Of a stretch of DNA of 64,000 nucleotides, positions 177 through 57,207 are shown piece after piece. The DNA lies in IMG/VR virus record IMGVR_UViG_3300031952_000013, positions 1-64,000 of that record; one strand, 5' to 3'. The notes beneath the pieces were generated by a model, which searched no databases, was not told where the DNA came from, and saw only the letters and a list, made by a program, of their open reading frames with translations. Numbering within the stretch: the stretch's first letter is position 1; each line of letters opens with the position of its first letter. The DNA is from a virus. The position numbers were made by a program, and so were the translations under genes.

Positions 177-3100
177 ATGGCTACCTATTACGTTAGTCAG
201 GTCGATGGTAACGATAGTTATAATGGGTTGTACCCTACTTTTTTGGGGGGGACTGATGGTCCCTGGCTGACTATTAGTAAGGCCGATGACCTAGCTGGGG
301 ACCAGTCTGATAATTATGTTCTTTTACGTTGTGGAGGTTTGTGGCGAGAATCATATATCATTGGTTGCTATGGAACTTCTGGTCATCCATTTACACTAGG
401 TTCGTATGGGACGGGTGATCTGCCTATCATCTGTGGGTCAAATCTATTCACTTCTTGGACGAATGAATCTGGATATCTTTGGTATACTGCCGCTAATGCC
501 TGGGACTCTTATTTTGTTGCATTTAATGGAACTCCCGGCTGGAGAGAGACTGCGAAGAATGACTTAGATGCTAATATGGACTTCTGGTATGACGCAACTA
601 ATGATAGGGTTTATGTTTACTCAACTGGGGGTAATCCTAATACGGTTTGGACAAATCCGGGTGTCGAAATTGCCGTTAGGCCGAGAGCGATTTGGACTGA
701 CGATGTGTATGATAAAGACTATATCAATATAGAAAACATCAATTTATATGGAACAGGATGCTATTATGGATGGGAAGGGGCTGCACTACACGCAAAAAGA
801 TGTGACAACTGGACGGTTATTGGAGTTGAGATTGGCGTAGTTGCGGGTCAAGGAATACAAACTAACGGTTGTAAAAACTGGACGATTTTATACTGTACAC
901 TATTGGGTTGGAGAGACTGTTATCCTCAGTGGGATGCAAGTGGTATTTCTATAAACGATGATGGCGCAGGTTATGAATCAAGTTATGTTTATATTCACCA
1001 TAACACCATAAATTATTGGCAGAACTGCGCTATTATGATTACTTCATGGGACCATGAATCCCCCTCTACTTATTGCGAGGTTTCCTACAACGATTGTAGT
1101 CATACGTCCAGTGGGGTTTATTTAATAAAAGCAGACCATTGTTCGGTTCACCATAACATCTGCAACGATAATCTTCAGGCGAGAATTTACGGGGAAGAAT
1201 ATGGCCTTGCCCTAGAGACTGGGAACTATAATGAGTTTCATCACAATAGTTGCACGAACGGGATGGTTGGGACGGAGTTTTGGGGTTACGTGACGGGTGA
1301 ACCGTGGCCCGCTTCGGGGACGATAAACAATAACCTATACCATCACAATATCGTTTCGGGGAACGTCATGTTCGGATTTTTAATATACGAAGGATGCTCC
1401 AGTAACAGTCAGATTTACGACAACATAATTTTCAATAATGGACAGGGCGGCATAACCATAAGCGAACACGATGCTACTGGGACAGGGAACCTGGTTTATA
1501 ATAATACTCTTTATCATAACGACACCGACGCGAATCAGTGGTATGCTGATATTTACTTTGGTAATACCTGTGCTGGATGGACCGTCCGAAACAACCTTTG
1601 CTTCAACACAAATAGGTTGTGCTTCCGTGGGGGCGTTACCTTTGGCGGAACACACGACCACAACTGTTATTATAGGGCATCTGGGAATGTTATTAAGGAT
1701 GGTGCTACTTACTATACACTCGCTCAGGTTACGAATTTTGAGGCTACGGCGATAGCGGCAGACCCTGAGCTTGCCAATGCCGGAGGAACAAGTGCTGAAG
1801 ATTACAAGATTCTTTCATCTTCACCTTGCAGAGATACTGGTACAGCTTCCGGGTTGACGTTGACCCTAGATTATTTCGAAAACACGATTCCCTATGGTGT
1901 GGGTCCCGACATCGGAGCGCATGAGTATACGGGTGGAGAGGAGAAGACGGTTCCTCTGAGAGTCACAAGGGAAATAGCTGGAACTTCAACTGCTATTTCT
2001 TCTGTATCAGGTATTGTTAAAAGGAAAAAGAGAATTTCAGGGACTTCGGCTGCTGTTTCTTCTGTGTTGGGGGTTGTTGGTAAAATAGGAGGGGCAGGAG
2101 TAAGCGGTGGAGAGACAAGGGGAATTGATACTTGGGCGCAATTGATAAGACTTCCTAATCCTAACATTAAGATTTTGTGTGAGGCTCTTCCTGCGGCCTA
2201 CTATGTTTGTGGAAGTGGTTGGACTTCTGAGGGTAGTGATACTTATTCTCATGCTTGTGTAGAAACCGGGGTTACAAGTGTGGCCTATAATGGGGTTTCA
2301 CTTACTATAAAAGTTAGCGTTGCTGAGGTTAAGGCTGCTGACGGTAGCTGGTATTTCGATTTCTATGGTCAGATGATTTACGTTCATGGACCTAGCGATG
2401 AAAACCTATCTAGTGGAAGTAATACAGATGTTGTTATGGCTTTTTGCCGTAAGGATTTTGCTACAGCGCCTTATTATTATGGGAATAGAGAGTATCGTCC
2501 TCTTATCCGACAGGATAGTTTTCCGGCTATGGATTTGGCTGTTGATGATATTGTCGAGGGGATGTATCGGTTTAACTTTAGTAGTTTTTCATTGAACAAT
2601 GACGGGTGGTTTGATACTGCGGTGGAAGAATATATTTGGACTAATCGGGTTGTGGTTATCAAGATTGGAGGAGAGGCTCTTCCGTATTCTGAGTATCAGA
2701 CATTCTTTGTGGGTAGAATTTCCGACTTCTCTGTTTCAGATGAATTGGTGGTGTTTACTTTGAAGGATATGCGTGTGGGTAGTTTAGCCCAGATTCCCAT
2801 AGACCATTATTGGATTACTGATTACCCTAACATGGACCCCGATGATGAGGATAAGGCAATCCCTCTTTTTTATGGGGTAAAATCTGACATAACTCCGATT
2901 TGTATTGATACTACGGCAGGAACAGGGGGAAAGTGGAAGATTTGCGATAGTCGGCCAATTAAAGAGATTACCGAGGTTAAGAAGAACAAGAAAGTTTTGA
3001 CTCCCACTACGCAATATACGGTAGATTTGACTAAAGGAGAGTTTACCCTTTTGGTTCCTTTTCATAAAGATAAGGGTCATGTTTTGAAGGTCAAGGCAAA

Positions 3101-4589
3101 AGGGTTTGTTGCTGGGTCTAATAATCTTATAGAAAAGGGCGGAGCGATAGCTAAAGATATTTTAAAAACTTATCTGGGTTGGACGGATGATGAACTTGAC
3201 TTAGATTCTTTTACTAACACAGATTCTTTACGGACATACTTATTAGACATCTATCTGGATACTGATGAGGACTCCAGGCAAGTTCTTCAAACGATAGGTA
3301 GGAGTGTTGTTGCTTTCTTCTCTCCCACAGAGAATGGGAAGTTGTCGTTTATGGCTTATGAACCTACAATTGAAGCTGGAACTCTTGAGTTATTTGATGA
3401 AGATTTCTATGCAGATTGGAAGGTTATAAAAGACGATTCATGGATTAGGCATAAGGTTCAAGTAAGTTATGGTCAGAATCCCACGACGGATGAATACTTG
3501 ATTGTTGAAGTAACTAATGATGAGGCTTTATTTAAGTATGGGCTTAGAGAAACTCTGTCTATTGTTACATATCTAAGAAGTGAATCGGATGCGACTAATG
3601 TGGCTGGTGGGGTTTTGGATATGGTGTCCAAACCTATTACTGTTTTTTCTTCTACCTTTGGGTTGAAAGGTTTTACTTTATTCCCGACGCGGAAGGTGGT
3701 GGTTACTCGGTCTAGAGCGGCGGATGCTACGGGGGAATTTGACGCTAAGGTTTTTAGAATTAAACAGGTTGTAAAGAATCCAACGACGGAGACAACTCAG
3801 GTTATTGGACAGGATGATCTTCAGACTCTTGGGGAAATTTTCTGTTACGTCTGCTATAGCTGTCAGACTTGTTATGCTCAGGAGGTATCCTGTTCGGTAT
3901 GCTATGCCTGTCAGATTTGTAATGCTACGCAGGAAGGTTGTTTGACTTGTGATACGTGTGAACTGTGCGTGACTACGGAGGGTGGTTGTCAGACTTGTGA
4001 TGTTTGTGAGGTTTGCAATACTTGTCAGTCATCGGTAGGGGAGTGTGCCACCTGTCAGATTTGTAATGTCTGTGCGGTTTGTAATATCTGTCAGTCAAAT
4101 GTCACAACTTGTGTGACCTGTCAGGTATGTAATGCCTGTGTATACTGTAACGTCTGTCAGATTAATGTGACTTCATGTACTTCGTGTGAACTGTGCAATA
4201 CGTGTGATTCCTGTAATACCTGTCAGGTTTCGGTTAAGACGTGCTTGACTTGTCAGGCGTGTTATGGTTGTCAAACGGTTTATTCACCCTGTCCTGGGGC
4301 TTGTGATATTTGTAATGTTTGTGATTCCTGCGATACCTGTCAGTTGGGGGTTAAGACTTGCACCACTTGTCAGGTATGCGATACTTGTGAGCATTGGTAT
4401 ACTTGTTATTCGTGTCAGACTTGTCAATTATGCTATTCGGCTCAACACCCTTCGGGATGCGCGGTATGCAATACTTGTCAATATTGTGTGGCAGCTCAGG
4501 ATTGTACTTCTTGTGATGTGTGCAACGTCTGTCAGGGGTCTTGTTATATTTGTGAAATATGTGTGAGTTACCAAGGTGGTCCACCGTGA
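177..4589 (+). CDS. Tail spike / tail tip fusion protein with cysteine-repeat C-terminus
   Basis: A 1470-residue virion protein with three parts. Residues 1-580 look like a right-handed parallel beta-helix: the N-terminus has the Y-Y-V-S-x-x-G-N-D and G-T-D-G-P-W patterns of pectate-lyase-like tailspikes, followed by many H-H-N/Y-N-N turns. Residues near 590-640 hold two A-V-S-S-x-S-G modules shared with the upstream gene. Residues near 650-1220 resemble tail-tip or baseplate hub proteins in layout, though I cannot name the family. Residues 1223-1470 contain about 64 cysteines in 248 residues, spaced C-x-x-C-x-x-C, with a recurring block of about 22 residues: six cysteines, then Q-x-x-V-x-x. 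The start is ATG after a purine-rich GAAGGG. It is followed by a second Cys-repeat gene and a radical SAM enzyme, which suggests its tail is modified after translation. Confidence 0.8.
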   Translation: MATYYVSQVDGNDSYNGLYPTFLGGTDGPWLTISKADDLAGDQSDNYVLLRCGGLWRESYIIGCYGTSGHPFTLGSYGTGDLPIICGSNLFTSWTNESGYLWYTAANAWDSYFVAFNGTPGWRETAKNDLDANMDFWYDATNDRVYVYSTGGNPNTVWTNPGVEIAVRPRAIWTDDVYDKDYINIENINLYGTGCYYGWEGAALHAKRCDNWTVIGVEIGVVAGQGIQTNGCKNWTILYCTLLGWRDCYPQWDASGISINDDGAGYESSYVYIHHNTINYWQNCAIMITSWDHESPSTYCEVSYNDCSHTSSGVYLIKADHCSVHHNICNDNLQARIYGEEYGLALETGNYNEFHHNSCTNGMVGTEFWGYVTGEPWPASGTINNNLYHHNIVSGNVMFGFLIYEGCSSNSQIYDNIIFNNGQGGITISEHDATGTGNLVYNNTLYHNDTDANQWYADIYFGNTCAGWTVRNNLCFNTNRLCFRGGVTFGGTHDHNCYYRASGNVIKDGATYYTLAQVTNFEATAIAADPELANAGGTSAEDYKILSSSPCRDTGTASGLTLTLDYFENTIPYGVGPDIGAHEYTGGEEKTVPLRVTREIAGTSTAISSVSGIVKRKKRISGTSAAVSSVLGVVGKIGGAGVSGGETRGIDTWAQLIRLPNPNIKILCEALPAAYYVCGSGWTSEGSDTYSHACVETGVTSVAYNGVSLTIKVSVAEVKAADGSWYFDFYGQMIYVHGPSDENLSSGSNTDVVMAFCRKDFATAPYYYGNREYRPLIRQDSFPAMDLAVDDIVEGMYRFNFSSFSLNNDGWFDTAVEEYIWTNRVVVIKIGGEALPYSEYQTFFVGRISDFSVSDELVVFTLKDMRVGSLAQIPIDHYWITDYPNMDPDDEDKAIPLFYGVKSDITPICIDTTAGTGGKWKICDSRPIKEITEVKKNKKVLTPTTQYTVDLTKGEFTLLVPFHKDKGHVLKVKAKGFVAGSNNLIEKGGAIAKDILKTYLGWTDDELDLDSFTNTDSLRTYLLDIYLDTDEDSRQVLQTIGRSVVAFFSPTENGKLSFMAYEPTIEAGTLELFDEDFYADWKVIKDDSWIRHKVQVSYGQNPTTDEYLIVEVTNDEALFKYGLRETLSIVTYLRSESDATNVAGGVLDMVSKPITVFSSTFGLKGFTLFPTRKVVVTRSRAADATGEFDAKVFRIKQVVKNPTTETTQVIGQDDLQTLGEIFCYVCYSCQTCYAQEVSCSVCYACQICNATQEGCLTCDTCELCVTTEGGCQTCDVCEVCNTCQSSVGECATCQICNVCAVCNICQSNVTTCVTCQVCNACVYCNVCQINVTSCTSCELCNTCDSCNTCQVSVKTCLTCQACYGCQTVYSPCPGACDICNVCDSCDTCQLGVKTCTTCQVCDTCEHWYTCYSCQTCQLCYSAQHPSGCAVCNTCQYCVAAQDCTSCDVCNVCQGSCYICEICVSYQGGPP

Positions 4590-4603
4590 GTTAGGAGAAG
4601 GCT

Positions 4604-5347
4604 GTGGCTTGCGCGACTTGTGAATTTTGTGATACTTGTCAGGCTTGTAATACGTCGCAGTGTGCTGCTTGTCAGGTTTGCGATACCTGCCAGCAAGGTG
4701 TAGGGTCATGTCAGACTTGTCAGGCGTGTAATACTTGTGAGATGAGTGTGGCTAGTTGCCAAACCTGTCAGGTGTGTGTGGGTTGTCAGATATGTGTTTC
4801 AACAGAGTCTGGATGTTATTTGTGCTATGCTTGTGCGACATGTAACACTTGTCAAAGCTGTGACACGGCTCAGAGTGGTTGTGTGGTATGTGACACCTGT
4901 CAGATGTGCGTGGGGTGTCAAAGTTGTGTTACTGCTCAGTCTGGTTGTGTGATATGTAACACCTGTCAGGTATGTGATGTCTGTCAAAATTGCTATGCGT
5001 CGGAGGGAGGTTGTCAGGTTTGCAATACCTGTCAGGCTTGTGTTTCTTCTCAGGTGTGTGGTAGTTGTGAGACTTGTCAGGTATGCGATGTCTGTCAAAG
5101 TTGCTACACATGGCAGGGAGGCTGTCAGGTTTGTGCTACTTGCGACTCCTGCTATACGAAACAGGAGTGCAGTACCTGTAATGTTTGTAATACCTGTCAG
5201 ATTAGGGTTAGCTGTGTATCATGTGACACCTGCCAGAACTGTAACACCTGTCAGGTTGCGGTTACCTGTACGTCTTGTAATACTTGTCAGCATTGTTATG
5301 CTACTTGCTATTCTTGTGTAAATTGTCAGGTTCATTATGTCCCATAA
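4604..5347 (+). CDS. Cysteine-repeat protein, probable radical SAM substrate
   Basis: A 247-residue protein made almost wholly of C-x-x-C repeats: about 66 cysteines, with Gln, Asn, Thr, Asp and Val between them and short spacers such as Q-x-x-V-x-S or T-A-Q-S-G. The start is GTG at 4604, 6 bases after AGGAG; an in-frame TAG at 4592 excludes an earlier start. It is in a different frame from the upstream gene, which ends 14 bases before, so it is a separate protein and not a readthrough. There is no signal peptide or membrane helix. The repeats closely match the C-terminus of the upstream tail protein. Metal or Fe-S binding and crosslinking by the adjacent radical SAM enzyme are both possible; the latter is inferred from context. 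Confidence 0.8.
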   Translation: MACATCEFCDTCQACNTSQCAACQVCDTCQQGVGSCQTCQACNTCEMSVASCQTCQVCVGCQICVSTESGCYLCYACATCNTCQSCDTAQSGCVVCDTCQMCVGCQSCVTAQSGCVICNTCQVCDVCQNCYASEGGCQVCNTCQACVSSQVCGSCETCQVCDVCQSCYTWQGGCQVCATCDSCYTKQECSTCNVCNTCQIRVSCVSCDTCQNCNTCQVAVTCTSCNTCQHCYATCYSCVNCQVHYVP

Positions 5348-5375
5348 CTCGGTATACTTTATATAGGAGGTTTTT

Positions 5376-6908
5376 ATGGATAAAGAGGAGAGGGCTAAAC
5401 TTTGTAGAACGTGTTATTTCTGCCAGCAGGGGGTAGATAAAACACTCTCTGTGGATGATGAGATGTCCCGCTGTCAGAATTGCTACACCTGTGAGCAGGG
5501 GGTGGACAAGTCGGTTACGGCTAGGGATTTGCAGCAGGGGAAGAAGATTGATGGTGTTCTATCATCAGAGGAAGAAGCTAAACGTTGCTGCAATTGCTAT
5601 ACCTGTCAGCAGGATGTATCTGCATCATTTACGGTTAAGACTATTGGTCAGGTATTACAGGAATCAAATGTGGGGATTCCTGATAGGGCTAGTATTTGTC
5701 AGAATTGTTACTCGTGTCAGCAAGGGATAGATAAGTCGGTGAATGTTGATAATATGGGGAAGGGAGCAGCTACAGGTCAGAGCGGAGGATTTACTTGGTT
5801 TGTTTTTCCTACCAATATGTGCAACCTAAAATGCACGTATTGTTATGCGAATAACCAGCCAGGGAAGATGACCAAGGAAACAGCTGAGAAAGTGTTGAAT
5901 TGGTTGTTTGTAAAACAGCCCGATAAGACGATTCTGGTTCATTTCTTCGGTGGAGAACCGACCTATAATTGGGAGATTCTTGAGTTCATTGTGGAGGTGG
6001 GTAATCAAACAGCAAAGAGCAGGGGGGTAGAGGTTTCGTGGTCTATGACTACCAATGGTACGATGCTGGATACTGCTCGCCTTGATTGGATTGAGGCAAA
6101 GTTTAAGAAAGAGGGACCGTTTCTTTTGAGCATTGATGGTAGGCCTGAGACTCACGATAAGTATAGAATTCACGCTAATGGTCTGGGGTCGTATAGAGAT
6201 ATTCCTATTGATGAGATTATAAAGAGATGGCCTAAACTTGAATGTCGTCCGACGATTGAACCGGATACGGCAAAGAATTGGATTTATGATTACCGGTGGT
6301 TGAGGAATAAAGGATTTAAAAATATCGCAATTGAGCCGGATTACGAGACAGAATGGACGGATGTTCAGTTGTGGGATTATGAGAAGATGTTGGTAGCACT
6401 TGGTCATTACTACATCCTGGCTAAGGCTGCTAATCAGCCGATTTACATGAAGTGGATAGACGGGGTGAGGAGCAGCCTTTCTTCTGGGGTTGCTCCTGGG
6501 GGGACAATGTGTGGGACGGCTATCAACTGTGCGGCTATTGACCATCTTGGTTTTATCTATCCTTGTCAGAGGTATGCTAGTTATAGTGACCCTGCGACGT
6601 ATGCGATTGGAGATGTTGAGAAGGGATGGGATGAGTTGAAGTTGTTGGAGACTCAAAGGCTGATGAGGAGTGATGTTTGTGGGGATGTTTTAATGGGCAA
6701 TAATTGTGAGAAGTGCAGTGCGAGGTTGTTCTGCTTTAAGGGATGTAATGCAGCTAACCGAAAGATTATGGGGAGCAGGGAAATTGCTCTTCCTTTTTAT
6801 TGTGAACTGACTCGGATAGATGTTCGTGTGGCGTTGGCTGTTCTGGGTCAGTTAGGAGAATTAGGCTTGCGTCAAGGAGCGGGAAAGATAAGAGGATGCG
6901 AGCGTTAA
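5376..6908 (+). CDS. Radical SAM/SPASM peptide-modifying enzyme with N-terminal Cys repeats
   Basis: 510 residues. The radical SAM core has C-x3-C-x2-C at Cys149, Cys153 and Cys156, which binds the 4Fe-4S cluster that cleaves S-adenosylmethionine, and a G-G-E-P motif at 192-195. The C-terminus is a SPASM domain for auxiliary Fe-S clusters, with Cys379, 385, 397, 435, 444, 447, 453, 457 and 476. This layout is typical of anaerobic sulfatase maturases and RiPP thioether/crosslink enzymes. Residues 10-125 are unusual: four copies of C-x-x-C-Y-x-C-Q-Q-G-V-D-K-S-V (starting near 10, 33, 71 and 108), related to the C-x-x-C repeats of the two genes before it. A clear AGGAGG precedes the ATG. The likely substrates are those two Cys-repeat proteins; the chemistry is unknown. 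Confidence 0.88.
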   Translation: MDKEERAKLCRTCYFCQQGVDKTLSVDDEMSRCQNCYTCEQGVDKSVTARDLQQGKKIDGVLSSEEEAKRCCNCYTCQQDVSASFTVKTIGQVLQESNVGIPDRASICQNCYSCQQGIDKSVNVDNMGKGAATGQSGGFTWFVFPTNMCNLKCTYCYANNQPGKMTKETAEKVLNWLFVKQPDKTILVHFFGGEPTYNWEILEFIVEVGNQTAKSRGVEVSWSMTTNGTMLDTARLDWIEAKFKKEGPFLLSIDGRPETHDKYRIHANGLGSYRDIPIDEIIKRWPKLECRPTIEPDTAKNWIYDYRWLRNKGFKNIAIEPDYETEWTDVQLWDYEKMLVALGHYYILAKAANQPIYMKWIDGVRSSLSSGVAPGGTMCGTAINCAAIDHLGFIYPCQRYASYSDPATYAIGDVEKGWDELKLLETQRLMRSDVCGDVLMGNNCEKCSARLFCFKGCNAANRKIMGSREIALPFYCELTRIDVRVALAVLGQLGELGLRQGAGKIRGCER

Positions 6909-6911
6909 TGA

Positions 6912-7742
6912 ATGGGTAAAGCTAGACAGTTTGGTACGGAATCGGCTTTACAAAAGCACACGGCTCAAATTATCACAATCGCCCACCAGGGTGAGGTCTA
7001 TTTCTATATCAAAGATGAGTATATTGACGTTTCGGTTGGTGTAGCGGATGCAGGTAAGCCTATAGTTTTAGATGCTGCGGGGTTGATTGACCCTTCTATG
7101 TTACCGGCTGCTGACCACGGGGGATTGACTGGACGCGATGATGATGACCACACACAATACCTGAAAGAGGAAGCCTCAGGGGGAGCGGCATCTGAGGTTC
7201 CTGACCATACTCATCAAAGTACAGCTGAGTGTGGTAAACTTGACCACGGTTTATCTATTGATGGGTTAGCTGATGACGATCATCCGCAATACTTTCTTGC
7301 CTCAAAAATGGGGATAATGGGTGTTGTATCGGATGTTACTAACTCTACCCAAACACCAGCGAATGTTACGGGTTTATCTTTTGCTGTGGAAGCCAATAAG
7401 ATTTATCATTTTGAGTTTTCACTTAGAGGATGGAGCACAGCGGCGACTTGTGCGCCCTGGTTCCGGTTTACGGGTCCTGGTAGCCCGACATCATTCTGGT
7501 TTCACCTGGATATGCTAGAAGTTGGTACTGCGTATCCTATTGACCGTGAGGTGACGGCTTTCGATACTAATACTGCTTCGGAGTCATTCCAACGCGCTAC
7601 TCGGAGCTTCATACCGATAGTGGGATTCTTGGTGAATGGGGCGAATGCTGGAACTGTACAGTTGCAGTTTAGATGTGAAGACGCCTCAGAAACGGTGACT
7701 ATATATGCTGGCTCACACGGAATTTGGTATAAATTGAATTAG
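6912..7742 (+). CDS. Tail fibre-like virion protein
   Basis: 276 residues. Three copies of a D-H-x-x-L-x-G-L-x-D-D-D-H-x-Q-Y type motif lie in the first half (near residues 69-85, 98-104 and 112-127); this motif is common in phage tail fibres and often sits at trimer or metal-binding sites. The N-terminus (I-D-P-S-M-L-P) is also typical of fibre proteins. The C-terminal half is rich in aromatic and small residues and looks like a beta-sandwich receptor-binding or decoration domain. It starts 4 bases after the radical SAM gene, so the two are probably translated together. It contains few cysteines and is not an obvious substrate of that enzyme. Confidence 0.72.
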   Translation: MGKARQFGTESALQKHTAQIITIAHQGEVYFYIKDEYIDVSVGVADAGKPIVLDAAGLIDPSMLPAADHGGLTGRDDDDHTQYLKEEASGGAASEVPDHTHQSTAECGKLDHGLSIDGLADDDHPQYFLASKMGIMGVVSDVTNSTQTPANVTGLSFAVEANKIYHFEFSLRGWSTAATCAPWFRFTGPGSPTSFWFHLDMLEVGTAYPIDREVTAFDTNTASESFQRATRSFIPIVGFLVNGANAGTVQLQFRCEDASETVTIYAGSHGIWYKLN

Positions 7743-7757
7743 GAGGATACAGAGATA

Positions 7758-8954
7758 ATGGTTAAATGTGTTGATTGGAGGCTTTCCTATTCGGCAACAG
7801 AGACAAGGGAAGAGGCTCTTATTAGAATATATGAGTCTTCTGAGGTGTGGCTTAAACGTCCAGATGGTCGTCGGGGGTATGTTGACGGGTTTCTTAGTAT
7901 TTTGGCTAAGAAGTTTGGTGTTACACCAATGGCAATTAATAAGAAATTGGGGAGGCTGAGAAAGCAGGGGAGAATAGGGTGGTGTAGGGAAAAAACATGG
8001 GGTGAATTACCGGCTCCAGGTTTTACTCCTCTTGTAACAGATGATAAAAAGATTCCTGATGATGGCTGTACGGAAGAGTTCCTTGATTTGGTGATTTCTG
8101 GGGCTAAGGCGATGCATAAACGGGATGTTCGTCAAGAAGAAGTGTTCCCGAAGTACGAGAACTATGGATGGACTGGTCTTGTGATAGGTGGAGACTGGCA
8201 TTTTGAACACTATAAGACAGATACAAAGACTTTGGTTAGCGACCTAAAGCTGATAGGTCAGGAACCGAATTTGCTGTTTGGATTTAATGGTGATTCGGTG
8301 GATGTTATTGACTTGAGATTTCTTGAATTGGAGAACGAGACTGTTTCTATTCCTACACGAAGGCTTTATGAGATAGTGGAGTATCTGTTTAGTCTAGTTC
8401 CGAACACTCTATTTATGGTTATGGGTTGTCACGACAACTGGGTTCGTACTAGAGCTAGATGGGATATCATGGAAGCGCTACAGAGCAAGATTCCTGGCTA
8501 CTATCTGGGGTTTGGTGGGACTGTTAACTTGAAATTGGGCGATGTGCCATATAGGATTGTGGCGTATCACAAATATGGTAATGAAGCAAAGCATAATATC
8601 TTTCACCCCTGTTCTAATTATTTAAACCAGATGGATTCTACTGCGGATGTGGTAGCTATTGCTCATCGGCATGACCTTGTGGGTGTGGCTCATGTTTATG
8701 TTCAAGGGCAGCCCAGAGTGTTCTTACGTAGTGGGTCTCATCAATATAAGACTGAGTATGCTTGGAAAGAAGGATTCCGTGGAGCTATAGCGAGATGGCC
8801 AATGCTTTTACTCTCAGGTAAGTATAAGCGTATGATTCCGGTCACGAATTTTCGTGAAGGGCTGCCTATTTTGAGGATGCTGAATAAGTATCCTGAGTTT
8901 GAGAAGGAACTTTTGAAAGCTGGAGACGGTGGTAGTGTGAGGATTGAAAGATGA
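7758..8954 (+). CDS. Calcineurin-like metallophosphoesterase with N-terminal HTH
   Basis: 398 residues. The metal-binding motifs of the family are in order: G-G-D-W-H, N-G-D-S-V-D, G-C-H-D-N (in place of G-N-H-D/E), A-Y-H-K and A-H-R-H. Residues near 45-75 (I-L-A-K-K-F-G-V-T-P-M-A-I-N-K-K-L) look like a helix-turn-helix. Phage proteins of this kind are often annotated as DNA-binding phosphoesterases and may cut or repair nucleic acid; the substrate is not known here. It has an AGGAGG site and overlaps the next gene by 4 bases. Confidence 0.82.
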   Translation: MVKCVDWRLSYSATETREEALIRIYESSEVWLKRPDGRRGYVDGFLSILAKKFGVTPMAINKKLGRLRKQGRIGWCREKTWGELPAPGFTPLVTDDKKIPDDGCTEEFLDLVISGAKAMHKRDVRQEEVFPKYENYGWTGLVIGGDWHFEHYKTDTKTLVSDLKLIGQEPNLLFGFNGDSVDVIDLRFLELENETVSIPTRRLYEIVEYLFSLVPNTLFMVMGCHDNWVRTRARWDIMEALQSKIPGYYLGFGGTVNLKLGDVPYRIVAYHKYGNEAKHNIFHPCSNYLNQMDSTADVVAIAHRHDLVGVAHVYVQGQPRVFLRSGSHQYKTEYAWKEGFRGAIARWPMLLLSGKYKRMIPVTNFREGLPILRMLNKYPEFEKELLKAGDGGSVRIER

Positions 8955-9412
8955 ACAGTCTGATAAAAACGTATCTTGCTGGAGGATTTTATGGGGACTG
9001 GCATAAATATGTGATTAATCGTTGTGACGACGAAGTTCCTGGGATATTTACTTTTTTGAATCCTATAGTTCCGTGGATAAAAGATGGAAATGATGAGTTA
9101 ATATCAGAGGAAGAGAAAGAAGAAACAGATAAGAAACTCACACAGTCTCTTTGGTGGCCTCCAGATAAGTTTTGTGTTCGGATGGCTGATATTGTTTTTG
9201 TTTACTTTAGAGATTACCGTCCAAAGTTGTTGGGAGTAGGAGAAGTTTTTGAAATCGGTATGTGTTTTGCTTGGGATAAATTTACGATTGTGGTAAATGA
9301 AGTTGACCATAGATATTACCGTGGTGTCGCTCGGATGTTTCCAAACTTTAAAACGCTTAAAGAGGGAGTAGATTATCTGATTCATTGTGCATGGGTTGGA
9401 GGAGACATGTGA
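8951..9412 (+). CDS. Nucleoside 2-deoxyribosyltransferase-like protein
   Basis: 153 residues. The N-terminal Y-L-A-G-G-F-Y-G-D-W matches the start of the nucleoside 2-deoxyribosyltransferase fold, and A-D-I-V-F-V-Y-F followed by G-V-G-E-V-F-E-I-G-M-C-F-A matches its second half, where the Glu before I-G is the likely nucleophile. Such enzymes swap bases on deoxynucleosides; in phages they may feed nucleotide salvage or base modification. The insert near residues 30-70 is longer than in small family members. It overlaps the phosphoesterase gene upstream (ATGA) and the membrane protein downstream. Confidence 0.65.
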   Translation: MNSLIKTYLAGGFYGDWHKYVINRCDDEVPGIFTFLNPIVPWIKDGNDELISEEEKEETDKKLTQSLWWPPDKFCVRMADIVFVYFRDYRPKLLGVGEVFEIGMCFAWDKFTIVVNEVDHRYYRGVARMFPNFKTLKEGVDYLIHCAWVGGDM

Positions 9413-9693
9413 TGGTAGAAGAAGACATGAAGTTTAAAGGTTTTATAGGGAGGTTGTTGTTTAAACTCTCAGGGATGAAGGTTATTAGTTTCCTTGTTTC
9501 GGGAACTGGTGTTCTTGCACTGGTGGTTATGTCAAAGATGTTTTTCGGAAAGGTTTCTGACCAGATTATTCTAAAGGCTATGGAGGTAATAAAGGACTTG
9601 GCTCTCGGGTTGTTTATTGTACGTGGTACACAGAACGTAGTTACTTCGATTATGACTGGGAAAAAGACTAACAACAATAACGGAGAAGGATGA
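9412..9693 (+). CDS. Small membrane protein, possible holin
   Basis: 93 residues from the ATG at 9412, preceded by GGAGGA; a longer reading from 9385 lacks a good site. One clear membrane segment near residues 22-42 (V-I-S-F-L-V-S-G-T-G-V-L-A-L-V-V-M) and a weaker hydrophobic stretch near 60-80 are followed by a charged, Asn-rich tail. Its place just before the endolysin and a second membrane protein makes a holin role plausible, but no holin family is recognised. Confidence 0.5.
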   Translation: MVEEDMKFKGFIGRLLFKLSGMKVISFLVSGTGVLALVVMSKMFFGKVSDQIILKAMEVIKDLALGLFIVRGTQNVVTSIMTGKKTNNNNGEG

Positions 9694-54124: not shown

Positions 54125-54689
54125 AGAATGGTATTCAATTTATCAGAAGGCGGTGTGGGGCTGTGAAGCCTGTTCCGCTAGGCATGAGTGTACCCGACCG
54201 GTTCCTGGTGAGGGAGATTTAAATTCGTCTTTTTTGGTTGTTGGTAGGAACCCAGGTAAGAACGAAGATATTCTAGGGCAGCCCTTTGTTGGACCTGCTG
54301 GTGAGGTGCTGGATAAGTTTTTGGAATTGTGTGGCGTGTCACGGAGTAAAGGTTGTTTCATCACAAATATGTGCTTATGTCATACCAGAGAGGATAGGTT
54401 TTTATCTAAGGAAGAGGTGAAGACCTGTGTTAAGGGATTTTTAATACCGACTTTGGTTCAGTTGAAGCCGAAGGTCGTTATGGTATGTGGGACGCAGCCA
54501 AATTATTTTATAAACGGTATCAAGAAACCGTCTCATCATCATGGTGAACTGTTTGAGCATAGGTCAGGATTCCACACTATCTGTAGTCTTCATCCGGCAG
54601 CAGTTTGTTACAATCCCGACTTGTGGGTTAGATTTGAGGTTCTGGCTCCGGTTGTCAAGAGGTTACTAGATGATAATACGGTCTCCTGA
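54114..54689 (+). CDS. Family 4-type uracil-DNA glycosylase
   Basis: 191 residues. W-G-C-E-A-C-S and later Cys residues give the Fe-S ligands; R-P-V-P-G-E-G, V-V-G-R-N-P-G-K-N-E-D, G-Q-P-F-V-G-P-A-G-E-V-L-D-K and S-L-H-P-A-A are the family motifs. It removes uracil from DNA, so the genome is unlikely to be uracil-substituted. Confidence 0.87.
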   Translation: MLHEEWYSIYQKAVWGCEACSARHECTRPVPGEGDLNSSFLVVGRNPGKNEDILGQPFVGPAGEVLDKFLELCGVSRSKGCFITNMCLCHTREDRFLSKEEVKTCVKGFLIPTLVQLKPKVVMVCGTQPNYFINGIKKPSHHHGELFEHRSGFHTICSLHPAAVCYNPDLWVRFEVLAPVVKRLLDDNTVS

Positions 54690-57207
54690 GGAAGTTGAAG
54701 ATTTTTTAACCCGACACAAGTTTGATTTTGGCGATTTGCCGCACGTATATTTAGGCCAAGAAGACGGGAGTTTTCATAAGGATTGGGGTTTAGCCAAATA
54801 TAAGATTCTTTTCTCGATGCTATGGCGGTATCAGGATAGTCGTGGGAATCAAACTGTTCCACTTCTCTATCAGATTATAAATGAGTGGCGACCAGGAGAA
54901 GTTCTGATGGAGAGGGCCAATGTACCTGAGACAGAGGAACACTATAAACTTTTCCGTAAATATCAGATTCCTCTGTTCGGTGTGGAATCAAAGCACAGTG
55001 CAGGGGGCTACGATATGATAATGACCTCCCTTAGTTATGTTCCGGTCTGGTGGAATTTCCCCCTAATGTTGAAACTTAGTGGGATTCCAGTTCTTCAGAA
55101 AGATCGTTCTGATGAAGGGCAGTATCCTTTAATCATGGTTGGTGGTTCGTCTGTCTATGGTAACTTTGGGTTGGTGTTTCCTGTAGTTGACATAATCTAT
55201 TTTGGTGACGCTGAAGATGAAGAAGATGGAGGGGTTTTGCATTTATTGGATTACATTATGGAGTTGAGGGGCCATGGGTTACAAAATTCGGAGGTTCTAG
55301 ATGCTATTCAACCTAACTTCCCTTATATCATGTGCCCCAGGTTCTACACTCCTCACTATGAGAAAGAAAAGTTTACAGGATGGACATCGGCTCCGTCCAA
55401 GTTTCCCAAGAAGTTTGTCGTTAGGAAATGCAAAAATCTGGATGCGGTTCCTAAGTACACGAAGCCAATTCTCTCCTATACTGATAATACGATGGGTCTG
55501 GGTGAAGTGGAGATTTCCAGGGGTTGTCGTGGGATGTGTGCCTTTTGTGGTATCGGATGGAAGTACCGTCCATATCGGGAACGGTCTGTGGAAGTTATGG
55601 TTGAAGCTCTGACTACGAATAAGCGAAACTCTGGGGCGGTTTCGTTATGTCCTATCGCAACGGAATTTGCGTACTACTCACACAAACGCAAGTTAATTAA
55701 CGAACTTGCCAAGCACAGCCGGTATGTTGACCCTCTTTCCATGAGGATAGATGCTTTTGCAAGCGACGAAGAATTTGATATTTTCCTGAGGAAATTGTGT
55801 ATGAATCAAGTGGCTCTGGGAGTGGAAGGAGTTTCTCAAAGACTTAGGAATAGAATGATGAAGGGAATTTCTGAGGAGGAGATTCTGAAGGCTTGTAAGA
55901 TTGCGATTGAGGCTGGTTTTGACAGGGCCAAGTTTTTTATGATTGCAAATACGGACGAGACTTGGGAAGATTTTGAGGAGTTCTTTTCTCTCTTAAAGAA
56001 GGTTGTGGATATGAAGAACAGAGCTAGGTCTCGATTAAAGATTAGGGCTTCGTGGACTCCGCTTTTTGTGGAGGCTTGCACCCCGCTACAATGGAAGAGT
56101 CCTACGATTCTACAAGACAATATTGATTGGAAACAGGTATACAACAGGTTGAAAGAACTCGGTATTGAGATGAAGTACGGGGTGAAACGCAATTATAAAT
56201 TTATGCGGGTTTCTCAGGCTATGCATATTGGAGATACTCGGTTTGCTGAAGCAGTTGCTCTGGCAGCAGAGGAATCTGATAGGCCATTCTATTCGGGGTT
56301 TGATGATAAGTGCATCCCTAGACTTGAAAAATATATGGAGCAGACTGGTTATTCTTGGGATTATATGCTCAGAGAGAAGACCGAAGATGAGGAGTTTATA
56401 TGGGATGTTGTTGACAGGGGGGTCAAGAAAGAGACTTTATTGAAGTTGTGGAAGAAGATTAAATCAGGGGAGATGGATATGAAGAAAGTCAAGATTGTTC
56501 CTACAATGGATAATTGTGAACTGACAAAGACTCTCTATAACGAACAGGAAGCATTCTTTTGGGCTGTAGTGAAGTACAGGGTTTCTAAAGGATTGGATAC
56601 GGTTCCCAATGCTTACTGGACGGCACACATAAGCAGGGCTGGTTTGAGGAGCGGGGTCCCCCTGGCAGTGAATAAGATTCACTTCTTTAGTAATCACGAT
56701 AATGGAAACTGGTATGGAGGATTTGATTATATCGGTATTGGTTTAAGAAGCACACCATCCCCTGATAGTTGGTCTAAATTTTGTTCTGAGTTACAGCCGT
56801 TGGAGTATCAGAATGTATTGTGGTTACTAAATATGAAACCTACGTGGAGCGATCTGGTTAGTTCCTACCGGGTTGAGACTGACATTTCTCCTGCGGAGTG
56901 GGCAAAGTACAGAATCAAATTTGATGAAGCTGATAAGGTTACTGTGCGGAATAAAGAAACAAGATATTTTTCTGGTGCGTGGAGGCAGTTGGTTGATTTG
57001 AAAGAAATCAAGTATATTGATGTTCAGGTTTCTGCCGATGTTGCTCCTACGATTATTCTGAATATCTATATGAGCCATGAGGTAGGGATTAGGTTTGCCC
57101 TAGTTGGTCTCCTTCCTGGGGTTTCATCTCGTCGGATAAAGAAGTTTCTGGTTGAGAAAACGGGTTTACACAGGGTAAAAGATTGGGCGGTGCAGGAGAG
57201 TTTCTGA
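54670..57207 (+). CDS. Large radical SAM protein, YgiQ/TIGR03960-like
   Basis: 845 residues. The N-terminal 250 resemble a B12-binding-like Rossmann region (P-L-F-G-V-E-S-K ... G-Y-D-M-I-M-T-S-L ... G-I-P-V ... P-L-I-M-V-G-G-S ... Y-F-G-D-A-E). The radical SAM site is S-R-G-C-R-G-M-C-A-F-C near residue 285. The order matches the uncharacterised TIGR03960 group. The last 250 residues are unlike it. It lies among DNA repair genes, so nucleotide or tRNA modification is possible. Substrate unknown. Confidence 0.75.
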   Translation: MIIRSPEEVEDFLTRHKFDFGDLPHVYLGQEDGSFHKDWGLAKYKILFSMLWRYQDSRGNQTVPLLYQIINEWRPGEVLMERANVPETEEHYKLFRKYQIPLFGVESKHSAGGYDMIMTSLSYVPVWWNFPLMLKLSGIPVLQKDRSDEGQYPLIMVGGSSVYGNFGLVFPVVDIIYFGDAEDEEDGGVLHLLDYIMELRGHGLQNSEVLDAIQPNFPYIMCPRFYTPHYEKEKFTGWTSAPSKFPKKFVVRKCKNLDAVPKYTKPILSYTDNTMGLGEVEISRGCRGMCAFCGIGWKYRPYRERSVEVMVEALTTNKRNSGAVSLCPIATEFAYYSHKRKLINELAKHSRYVDPLSMRIDAFASDEEFDIFLRKLCMNQVALGVEGVSQRLRNRMMKGISEEEILKACKIAIEAGFDRAKFFMIANTDETWEDFEEFFSLLKKVVDMKNRARSRLKIRASWTPLFVEACTPLQWKSPTILQDNIDWKQVYNRLKELGIEMKYGVKRNYKFMRVSQAMHIGDTRFAEAVALAAEESDRPFYSGFDDKCIPRLEKYMEQTGYSWDYMLREKTEDEEFIWDVVDRGVKKETLLKLWKKIKSGEMDMKKVKIVPTMDNCELTKTLYNEQEAFFWAVVKYRVSKGLDTVPNAYWTAHISRAGLRSGVPLAVNKIHFFSNHDNGNWYGGFDYIGIGLRSTPSPDSWSKFCSELQPLEYQNVLWLLNMKPTWSDLVSSYRVETDISPAEWAKYRIKFDEADKVTVRNKETRYFSGAWRQLVDLKEIKYIDVQVSADVAPTIILNIYMSHEVGIRFALVGLLPGVSSRRIKKFLVEKTGLHRVKDWAVQESF

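Follow-up and report, generated by a model that had tools for sequence, protein, structure and literature searches.

The DNA analysed here (the window) comprises positions 1–64,000 of the 84,860-base virus record IMGVR_UViG_3300031952_000013. Close to the start of the window, the gene of a tail protein that ends in a Cys-repeat domain is followed by the gene of a free Cys-repeat protein and by that of a radical SAM/SPASM enzyme. These three genes probably constitute a virion-maturation cassette, in which the phage-encoded enzyme would introduce Cys thioether cross-links into tail appendages before assembly. The locus contains the following features.

177–4589, plus strand: open reading frame (ORF) of the tail protein (1470 residues)
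177–1946, plus strand: N-terminal right-handed β-helix-like part of the tail protein (residues 1–590), assigned from NCBIfam matches
2127–3842, plus strand: predicted baseplate hub or tail-tip core of the tail protein, assigned from an AlphaFold2 model, Foldseek and gene order
3843–4586, plus strand: C-terminal Cys-repeat domain of the hub protein (248 residues with 64 Cys, from residue 1223)
4604–5347, plus strand: ORF of the free Cys-repeat protein (247 residues with 66 Cys, GTG start)
5376–6908, plus strand: ORF of the radical SAM/SPASM enzyme (510 residues)
5376–5795, plus strand: N-terminal extension of the enzyme with four C-x-x-C-Y-x-C-[QE] units (in the more general form C-x-x-C-[YF]-x-C), assigned from the sequence
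5796–6908, plus strand: radical SAM core and complete SPASM domain, assigned from Pfam, NCBIfam, PDB and motifs
6912–7742, plus strand: next gene of the operon (276 residues), with DHGGLxGRDDDDHTQY repeats and read from the sequence as tail-fibre-like

These four genes of the operon are on the same strand and are separated by gaps of 14, 28 and 3 nt. Shine-Dalgarno-like sequences precede the free Cys gene (AGGAGAAGG at 4593–4601) and the enzyme gene (AGGAGG at 5365–5370). The enzyme and Cys genes are positioned between tail genes; the 276-residue product of the fourth gene has no significant family match. An earlier note on this DNA, made from the letters alone, had counted about 64 Cys in the final 248 residues of the 1470-residue tail protein and about 66 in the next protein of 247 residues, and a recount confirmed 64 and 66. 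It had also placed a radical SAM/SPASM gene in one tight operon with both Cys genes, which is borne out by the PF04055 match, the SPASM motif and the gaps of 14 and 28 nt. The observation was right and, moreover, understated.

The core of the tail protein was modelled with AlphaFold2 from an alignment of 10 sequences (mean predicted local distance difference test score (pLDDT) 74.5, predicted template-modelling score 0.65). In a Foldseek search against the PDB, the T5 tail tip is the best match of this model (E 6e-17). Mu gp44 (E 1e-9), prophage 43-kDa tail proteins and the lambda tail tip are matched as well. The gene order, derived from the end of the virus record and the overlapping contig L001, is tape measure, phrog_8610 tail protein, hub. 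The tail protein thus has both the fold of a hub and the position of one, after the tape measure and distal tail genes, and its core is, according to the model, a baseplate hub or tail tip resembling gp27, pb3 and gpJ. The tail appendage proposed in the earlier note can accordingly be specified as a T5 pb3/gp27-like baseplate hub. Because the core is predicted to fold as a hub, the Cys domain would be a C-terminal extension at the tail tip. Since baseplate hubs form trimers where the tail ends distally, the tip would carry about 190 Cys. T5 pb3, Mu gp44 and lambda gpJ share the fold of the hub core and its genomic position; none of them is known to end in Cys repeats or to be linked to a radical SAM gene, and the literature search gave no paper of this kind. 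The N-terminal β-helix-like part matches the NosD family (residues 183–452, E 4.8e-05) and the choice-of-anchor Q family (residues 532–584, E 9.8e-05), both below the curated cut-offs. It is missing in most homologues of the tail protein and present in that of locus L050.

The Cys residues of both proteins are arranged in a regular pattern. A spacing of 3 is found in 49 of 63 Cys-Cys intervals of the hub domain and in 52 of 65 of the free protein. The C-x-x-C register described in the earlier note stands insofar as this spacing dominates; the true pattern is a hexad with a period of 6, C-[D/N/Y/V]-[T/S]-C-[Q/E]-x, instead of a simple C-x-x-C. The register C-x-x-C-[QE]-x-C-x-x-C-[QE]-x-C occurs four times in the window and never in 100 shuffles. 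Among about 700 consecutive units, neighbouring Q/E pairs were observed only 18 times, compared with 306 and 238 alternations. The Cys content in CxxC spacing amounts to 26–30%, the residue following Cys (+1) is Asp, Glu, Asn or Gln in 68% and the next one (+2) Ser or Thr in 51% of cases, and Lys and Arg together account for about 1%.

When the free Cys protein is aligned with a relative, all 66 Cys are retained in spite of 21 synonymous TGT/TGC changes, with 44% identity at the non-Cys positions. A second comparison of free Cys proteins gave 30 of 30 aligned Cys and 18 synonymous codon changes (non-Cys identity across the two comparisons 44–52%). Since all aligned Cys are retained despite synonymous changes and diverged neighbours, conservation acts on the protein and does not stem from DNA repeats. 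Many other matches to the Cys pattern turned out to be low-complexity DNA repeats (CQSCQS..., CQKCQK...) and were removed by a stricter repeat grammar. Neither Pfam nor NCBIfam contains a match for the free Cys protein; its sole match, a weak one, is to the unannotated phrog_15341, and structure prediction yielded no confident fold (pLDDT 40). Its first Cys is at residue 3, and there is no leader segment. In this respect the putative substrates, a 247-residue protein and a 1470-residue hub, do not resemble the short leader-core precursors of ranthipeptides and other ribosomally synthesized and post-translationally modified peptides (RiPPs).

The hub Cys domain and the free Cys protein are of matching size. 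Over 17 loci their lengths range from 43 to 301 residues with a Pearson correlation of 0.997, and the numbers of Cys in the paired domains correlate with 0.995 (0.90, p 0.005, for the seven long pairs alone). The spacing strings of the two chains are in a similar register. Identity at non-Cys positions is 0.36 within a genome, 0.31–0.33 between genomes and 0.15 for shuffled sequences. As the value within genomes is barely above that between genomes, recent gene conversion does not explain the matched lengths. Length and register together suggest that the hub Cys domain and the free Cys protein form a paired, in-register assembly, and the two chains can be read as parts of one common structure.

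The enzyme matches PF04055 with 50.8 bits (gathering score 29.5, E 2.8e-13) and has an intact radical SAM CX3CX2C motif (CNLKCTYC, Cys149, Cys153 and Cys156). The full SPASM set is present as well (C379-X12-G-X4-C397, C444-X2-C447-X5-C453-X3-C457 and C476) and is invariant in A1; the radical SAM and SPASM Cys set is conserved across 12–13 homologues. The best NCBIfam match is the PapB ranthipeptide maturase (NF047865, E 4.5e-64, 216.8 bits against an equivalog cut-off of 340). Further matches are the SCIFF maturase (TIGR03974, 130.1 bits against 425), QhpD (TIGR03906, E 3e-34, 118 bits against 453), the CXXX-repeat family (TIGR04115, 104.7 bits against 350), the anaerobic sulfatase maturase (anSME; TIGR03942, 82.9 bits against 349) and the Cys-every-fifth family (NF038107, 61 bits against 600). 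The nif11 maturases are likewise among the nearest families, also below their equivalog cut-off. Among solved structures, PDB entry 5wgg, the SCIFF maturase CteB, is closest to the A1 enzyme profile (E 1e-61). By these comparisons the enzyme is nearest to thioether-forming maturases of the PapB/SCIFF type. Of the two RiPP classes that the earlier note gives as examples, the nearest families thus belong to the ranthipeptide maturases (PapB, SCIFF), accompanied by QhpD, and not to the sactipeptide maturases.

The alignment to 5wgg begins only at residue 98 of that chain, so that no leader-binding domain is matched. Residues 1–140 of the enzyme, which contain its Cys repeats, gave no Pfam or NCBIfam match to a leader-binding (RRE) domain; a diverged RRE could be missed by a sequence search. 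These N-terminal repeats, which the earlier note does not mention, resemble the start of the substrate Cys domain, and a Cys-repeat N-terminus is present in 12 of 13 type-A enzymes, i.e. those of the hub-type cassette. Two deviations in the radical SAM motif were seen among other enzymes. In the L050 enzyme (7270–9594, plus strand) an intein-like insertion, beginning HVAGTRVLM and ending SAN, lies exactly inside the CX3CX2C motif, between CNLRC and CDYCYA. The enzymes of L004 (9111–10673) and L127 (6950–8476) contain CNLSCKYPC and CNFRCAYPC, respectively, corresponding to CX3CX3C instead of CX3CX2C.

The earlier note had made its reading depend on whether homologues of the Cys proteins neighbour radical SAM genes; this check was run and passed, and the cassette recurs in divergent phages. 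Starting from the Cys proteins, the enzyme is found in all six window-type loci with downstream sequence; L022 and L065 were left out of this count, as their contigs end within 190 nt after the Cys genes. Starting from the enzyme, all strong viral relatives (L123–L134 and L093) have two Cys genes directly upstream. Starting from the hub, a Cys C-terminus is present in 14 of 16 further loci. The enzyme is encoded in every Cys-tailed hub locus that extends far enough downstream; in the four that lack it, the contig ends soon after the Cys genes. In the two hub loci without Cys (L242 and L243, one phage type), up to 18 kb of sequence contains no enzyme. Judged by the hubs, Cys tail and enzyme are thus either both present or both missing.

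Four smaller versions of the cassette (L041, L068, L141 and L142) encode either a tail protein with a Cys tail or a pair of small Cys proteins beside tail-fibre-like genes; L030 is a further, truncated one. Among the cellular relatives of the enzyme, the Cys pair was found in 2 of 80 genome-contig loci, L141 (Ca. Lithacetigena) and L142 (Brockarchaeota), with neighbours that look viral. In these two loci (6114–8308 and 6045–8194, respectively) the Cys pair and the enzyme lie beside tail-like genes on contigs binned as a bacterium and an archaeon. Probably, both are prophage or virus contigs, and the binning hints at an archaeal host range.

The two remaining strict-pattern matches, L031 and L092, belong to other families. 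L031 has no enzyme in its 1.5 kb of downstream sequence. L092 was considered as an enzyme-less counter-example and rejected, because an adjacent 478-residue gene product weakly matches radical SAM and QhpD (E 0.0056 and 1.5e-5); as these matches are weak, the locus counts firmly neither way. It is a terminase-proximal gut phage operon (3502–8677, minus strand) that encodes large Cys-rich proteins of 782 and 376 residues, and its very divergent radical SAM-like protein itself ends in GNCNCSNNN.

A second and a third kind of association share the motif NCNCDCNC; the one with tail fibres that end in this motif is independent of the hub type. The motif was found in frame at 51 loci, and almost all of the proteins concerned are tail-fibre-like. 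A SPASM enzyme, typically 0.6–2 kb away, is present in 35 of the 36 loci with at least 3.5 kb of downstream sequence; the exception is a 69-residue ORF. In gut phages (L045, L075, L294 and others) the order is tape measure, Dit, tail, tail fibre, radical SAM, two Cys proteins and a second radical SAM. The Cys proteins of these phages have CQxC repeats, and the second one also carries a C-terminal NCNCDCNC. The cultured Achromobacter phage JWF encodes a fibre with NCNCDCNCNCSC and a Hint domain (gp028) and a radical SAM protein (gp030). Achromobacter phage 2-1 likewise has an NCNCDCNC tail fibre and a radical SAM/SPASM gene. In both phages the tail fibre with the Cys motif is encoded two genes before the radical SAM/SPASM gene and beside the tail hub gene, which makes the loci comparable to the window. 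The two phages differ from the window in their enzyme clade, in the Cys-x-Cys instead of Cys-x-x-Cys spacing and in the single Cys segment, which is followed by a Hint domain. The papers found contain no discussion of the JWF and 2-1 fibre and enzyme as a system. In JWF, 2-1 and a relative (L244, 2670–4121; L307, 1682–3124; L301, 3200–4657) NCNCDCNC directly precedes the autoprocessing Hint domain, which starts with CFPAGT, suggesting that the fibre is cut just past the Cys motif.

In the tree, the enzymes of the NCNCDCNC loci (type B) are separate from type A with 99% support in the Shimodaira-Hasegawa-like approximate likelihood ratio test; the cellular relatives were sampled with a bias to type A. 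Owing to this separation, the association has probably originated, or been recruited anew, on more than one occasion. A wider claim, for which the chances are about even, is that several tailed-phage lineages encode radical SAM/SPASM enzymes that cross-link Cys-rich tail-tip or fibre segments. In the hub type, two chains of equal length would be stapled in register into a composite thioether fibre, and the whole would represent an undescribed kind of maturation and class of substrate.

Known maturases indicate which bonds might be formed. PapB connects the Cys sulfur to the β or γ carbon of Asp or Glu in Cys-Xn-Asp (n = 0–6) with a loss of 2 Da per bond (PMC9413430). In the SCIFF peptide CteA, Cys32 is bonded to Thr34, two positions away. 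NxxcA contains a Cys-Asn bond, and QhpD introduces Cys-Asp/Glu thioethers into a protein that is not a RiPP (PMC8326336). With the residues found at +1 and +2 in the repeats, acceptors would lie beside nearly every Cys if amide and hydroxyl residues are allowed.

Most likely, the cassette serves to build a covalently stapled tail-tip extension. The hub protein would present its 64-Cys domain distally on the tail tip, and the free 247-residue protein would be its partner of equal length and register. As both putative substrates lack a classical leader and the enzyme shows no leader-binding domain, it may bind the repeats directly, probably via its own substrate-like N-terminal repeats. It would then use 5'-deoxyadenosyl radicals to join Cys sulfur to neighbouring side chains (Asp/Asn/Glu/Gln at +1, Thr/Ser at +2). 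The product would be a thioether-stapled, reduction-proof fibre or plug at the tail tip, completed ahead of assembly in the reducing host cytoplasm, where disulfides fail. It may provide mechanical or protease resistance or contact a receptor. Genomic evidence, namely gene linkage, hub fold, Cys conservation, matched lengths and enzyme family, supports the earlier note's interpretation; action of the enzyme on the Cys proteins and a thioether product are what we infer.

Several points weigh against this interpretation. The enzyme is below every NCBIfam equivalog cut-off. Asp and Glu amount to only 14–18 per 64–66 Cys in each Cys protein of the window; strict PapB chemistry would therefore reach about a quarter of the Cys, and Asn/Gln or Thr/Ser would be needed for full linkage. 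The pairing is read from lengths and register, with a free Cys protein that has no confident fold, and some of the 17 pairs are phylogenetically related to each other. Metal-binding proteins, too, typically have dense CxxC. Finally, the action of the enzyme on both Cys proteins, the thioether bond, the pairing of the chains and their purpose are deduced from these genomic data.

The enzyme may modify the Cys tail proteins in another way, by C-C or C-O bonds at the neighbours of Cys, by epimerization or by another Cys-directed radical reaction. SPASM maturases as a group yield many products, the family matches include cyclophane and other maturases besides the ranthipeptide ones, and the real targets could be the conserved residues that separate the Cys (D/N followed by T/S, and Q/E). 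However, Cys and not its neighbours is invariant, and the best-scoring families make thioethers, which renders a different product unlikely.

Quite unlikely, too, is binding of metal or Fe-S by the Cys repeats, be it metallothionein-like or as a tail-tip metal ladder comparable to the His-rich sites of phage fibres, with the radical SAM protein as loader or unrelated accessory. The high share of Cys in CxxC spacing agrees with it, and the Cys-repeat profile weakly matches zinc-finger chains in the PDB, at chance level (E 0.045 and worse); in Pfam and NCBIfam the repeats match no known metal-binding family. On the other hand, radical SAM/SPASM enzymes are catalysts and not known as cluster donors, and the enzyme has every radical SAM and SPASM Cys. 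Furthermore, residues typical of Zn or Fe sites show no order around the Cys (about 1% His and basic residues), and neither zinc nor ordinary metallothioneins need a maturase.

It is very improbable that the enzyme makes formylglycine like an anSME, or acts on some other substrate of phage or host and hitch-hikes in the operon. The anSME structures 4k36/4k37 are the second-best PDB family (E 8e-34 and 1e-33), and phages do carry unrelated radical SAM genes (11 in CP220, PMC2853527). Formylglycine formation was nevertheless rejected, as tail protein, free Cys protein and enzyme contain no CxPxR/CxAxR motif, and hitch-hiking is at odds with a linkage seen repeatedly, across several phage lineages and in two clades of the enzyme, and with the joint presence and absence. 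That the repeats are a simple disulfide-rich or unmodified spacer or DNA-repeat expansions can practically be dismissed: repetitive in-frame DNA can expand and some scan matches were pure low complexity, yet the codons are a mixture of TGT and TGC, Cys is kept through synonymous change while its neighbours diverged, a reducing anaerobic cytoplasm does not allow disulfides to form, and the pairing with the enzyme is constant.

The proposed thioether stapling of the tail tip has partial counterparts among known systems. PapB and its substrate freyrasin share with the window a radical SAM and SPASM enzyme and a Cys-rich substrate encoded next door. The putative substrates in the window are a 248-residue virion hub domain and a 247-residue partner, not a short leader-core peptide, and substrate-like N-terminal repeats take the place of a detectable leader-binding domain. 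CteB (5wgg) also acts on Cys-dense substrates, with thioethers to Thr (PMC8326336); about 97 N-terminal residues of its chain are unmatched by the window enzyme. QhpD likewise has a protein target, which is a redox enzyme subunit and not a virion part. In the CXXX-repeat and Cys-every-fifth systems (TIGR04115 and NF038107) a radical SAM enzyme is also encoded beside a regular Cys-repeat protein; the window differs by its spacing of 3 with period-6 grammar and by a tail protein as putative target.

A literature search for phage tails and radical SAM gave no description of radical SAM-modified virion proteins among open-licence papers, in line with the earlier note, which knew of no equivalent; as bioRxiv and subscription papers were outside the search, novelty is provisional. 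Radical SAM genes of Campylobacter phages, 11–12 per phage, have been treated as metabolic (PMC2853527). If the interpretation is true, virus particles, too, are built with radical SAM chemistry, which so far has been seen in natural products and in a small number of enzymes. This would explain how phages of anaerobes can have tail tips that are covalently rigid without disulfides and assign a function to some phage radical SAM genes usually annotated as metabolic or 'other' (phrog_1802). With 60–80 Cys per chain, the substrates would form a new, very large class for thioether enzymes, usable as a stapled-protein scaffold. The cultured Achromobacter phages JWF and 2-1 make the cross-linking idea directly testable.

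Other Cys-rich proteins were encountered in the searches. Those of Campylobacter phages (CP21_166 and relatives, tblastn matches) belong to another family and were not used as evidence. Their genes are near portal, ligase or helicase genes, and no radical SAM gene adjoins them in two of three phages, while one lies about 0.8 kb downstream in the third. This family, not clearly linked to radical SAM, starts with WIDSNNNKWD (WxDxNxNKW), followed by charged DCxNC/CxxC triplets. Members are present in Campylobacter phages (L225, 10958–11812; L226, 2902–3462; L227, 2911–3633) and in L007, L031, L046 and L084, IMG/VR contigs being included. PapB-like or other SPASM genes were also seen beside Cys-rich proteins in L135 (4097–6858) and L249 (4415–7227) and near one on the opposite strand in L136 (4503–7429). 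The spacing in these three differs, with mixtures of CxxxC and CxxC (e.g. CESSC and SGCSGGCSGTC), and L135 has fibronectin III domains. The window itself encodes a second radical SAM protein (54670–57207, plus strand, 845 residues, Radical_SAM_N2 and Radical_SAM, E about 1e-21), located 5' of terminase and portal.

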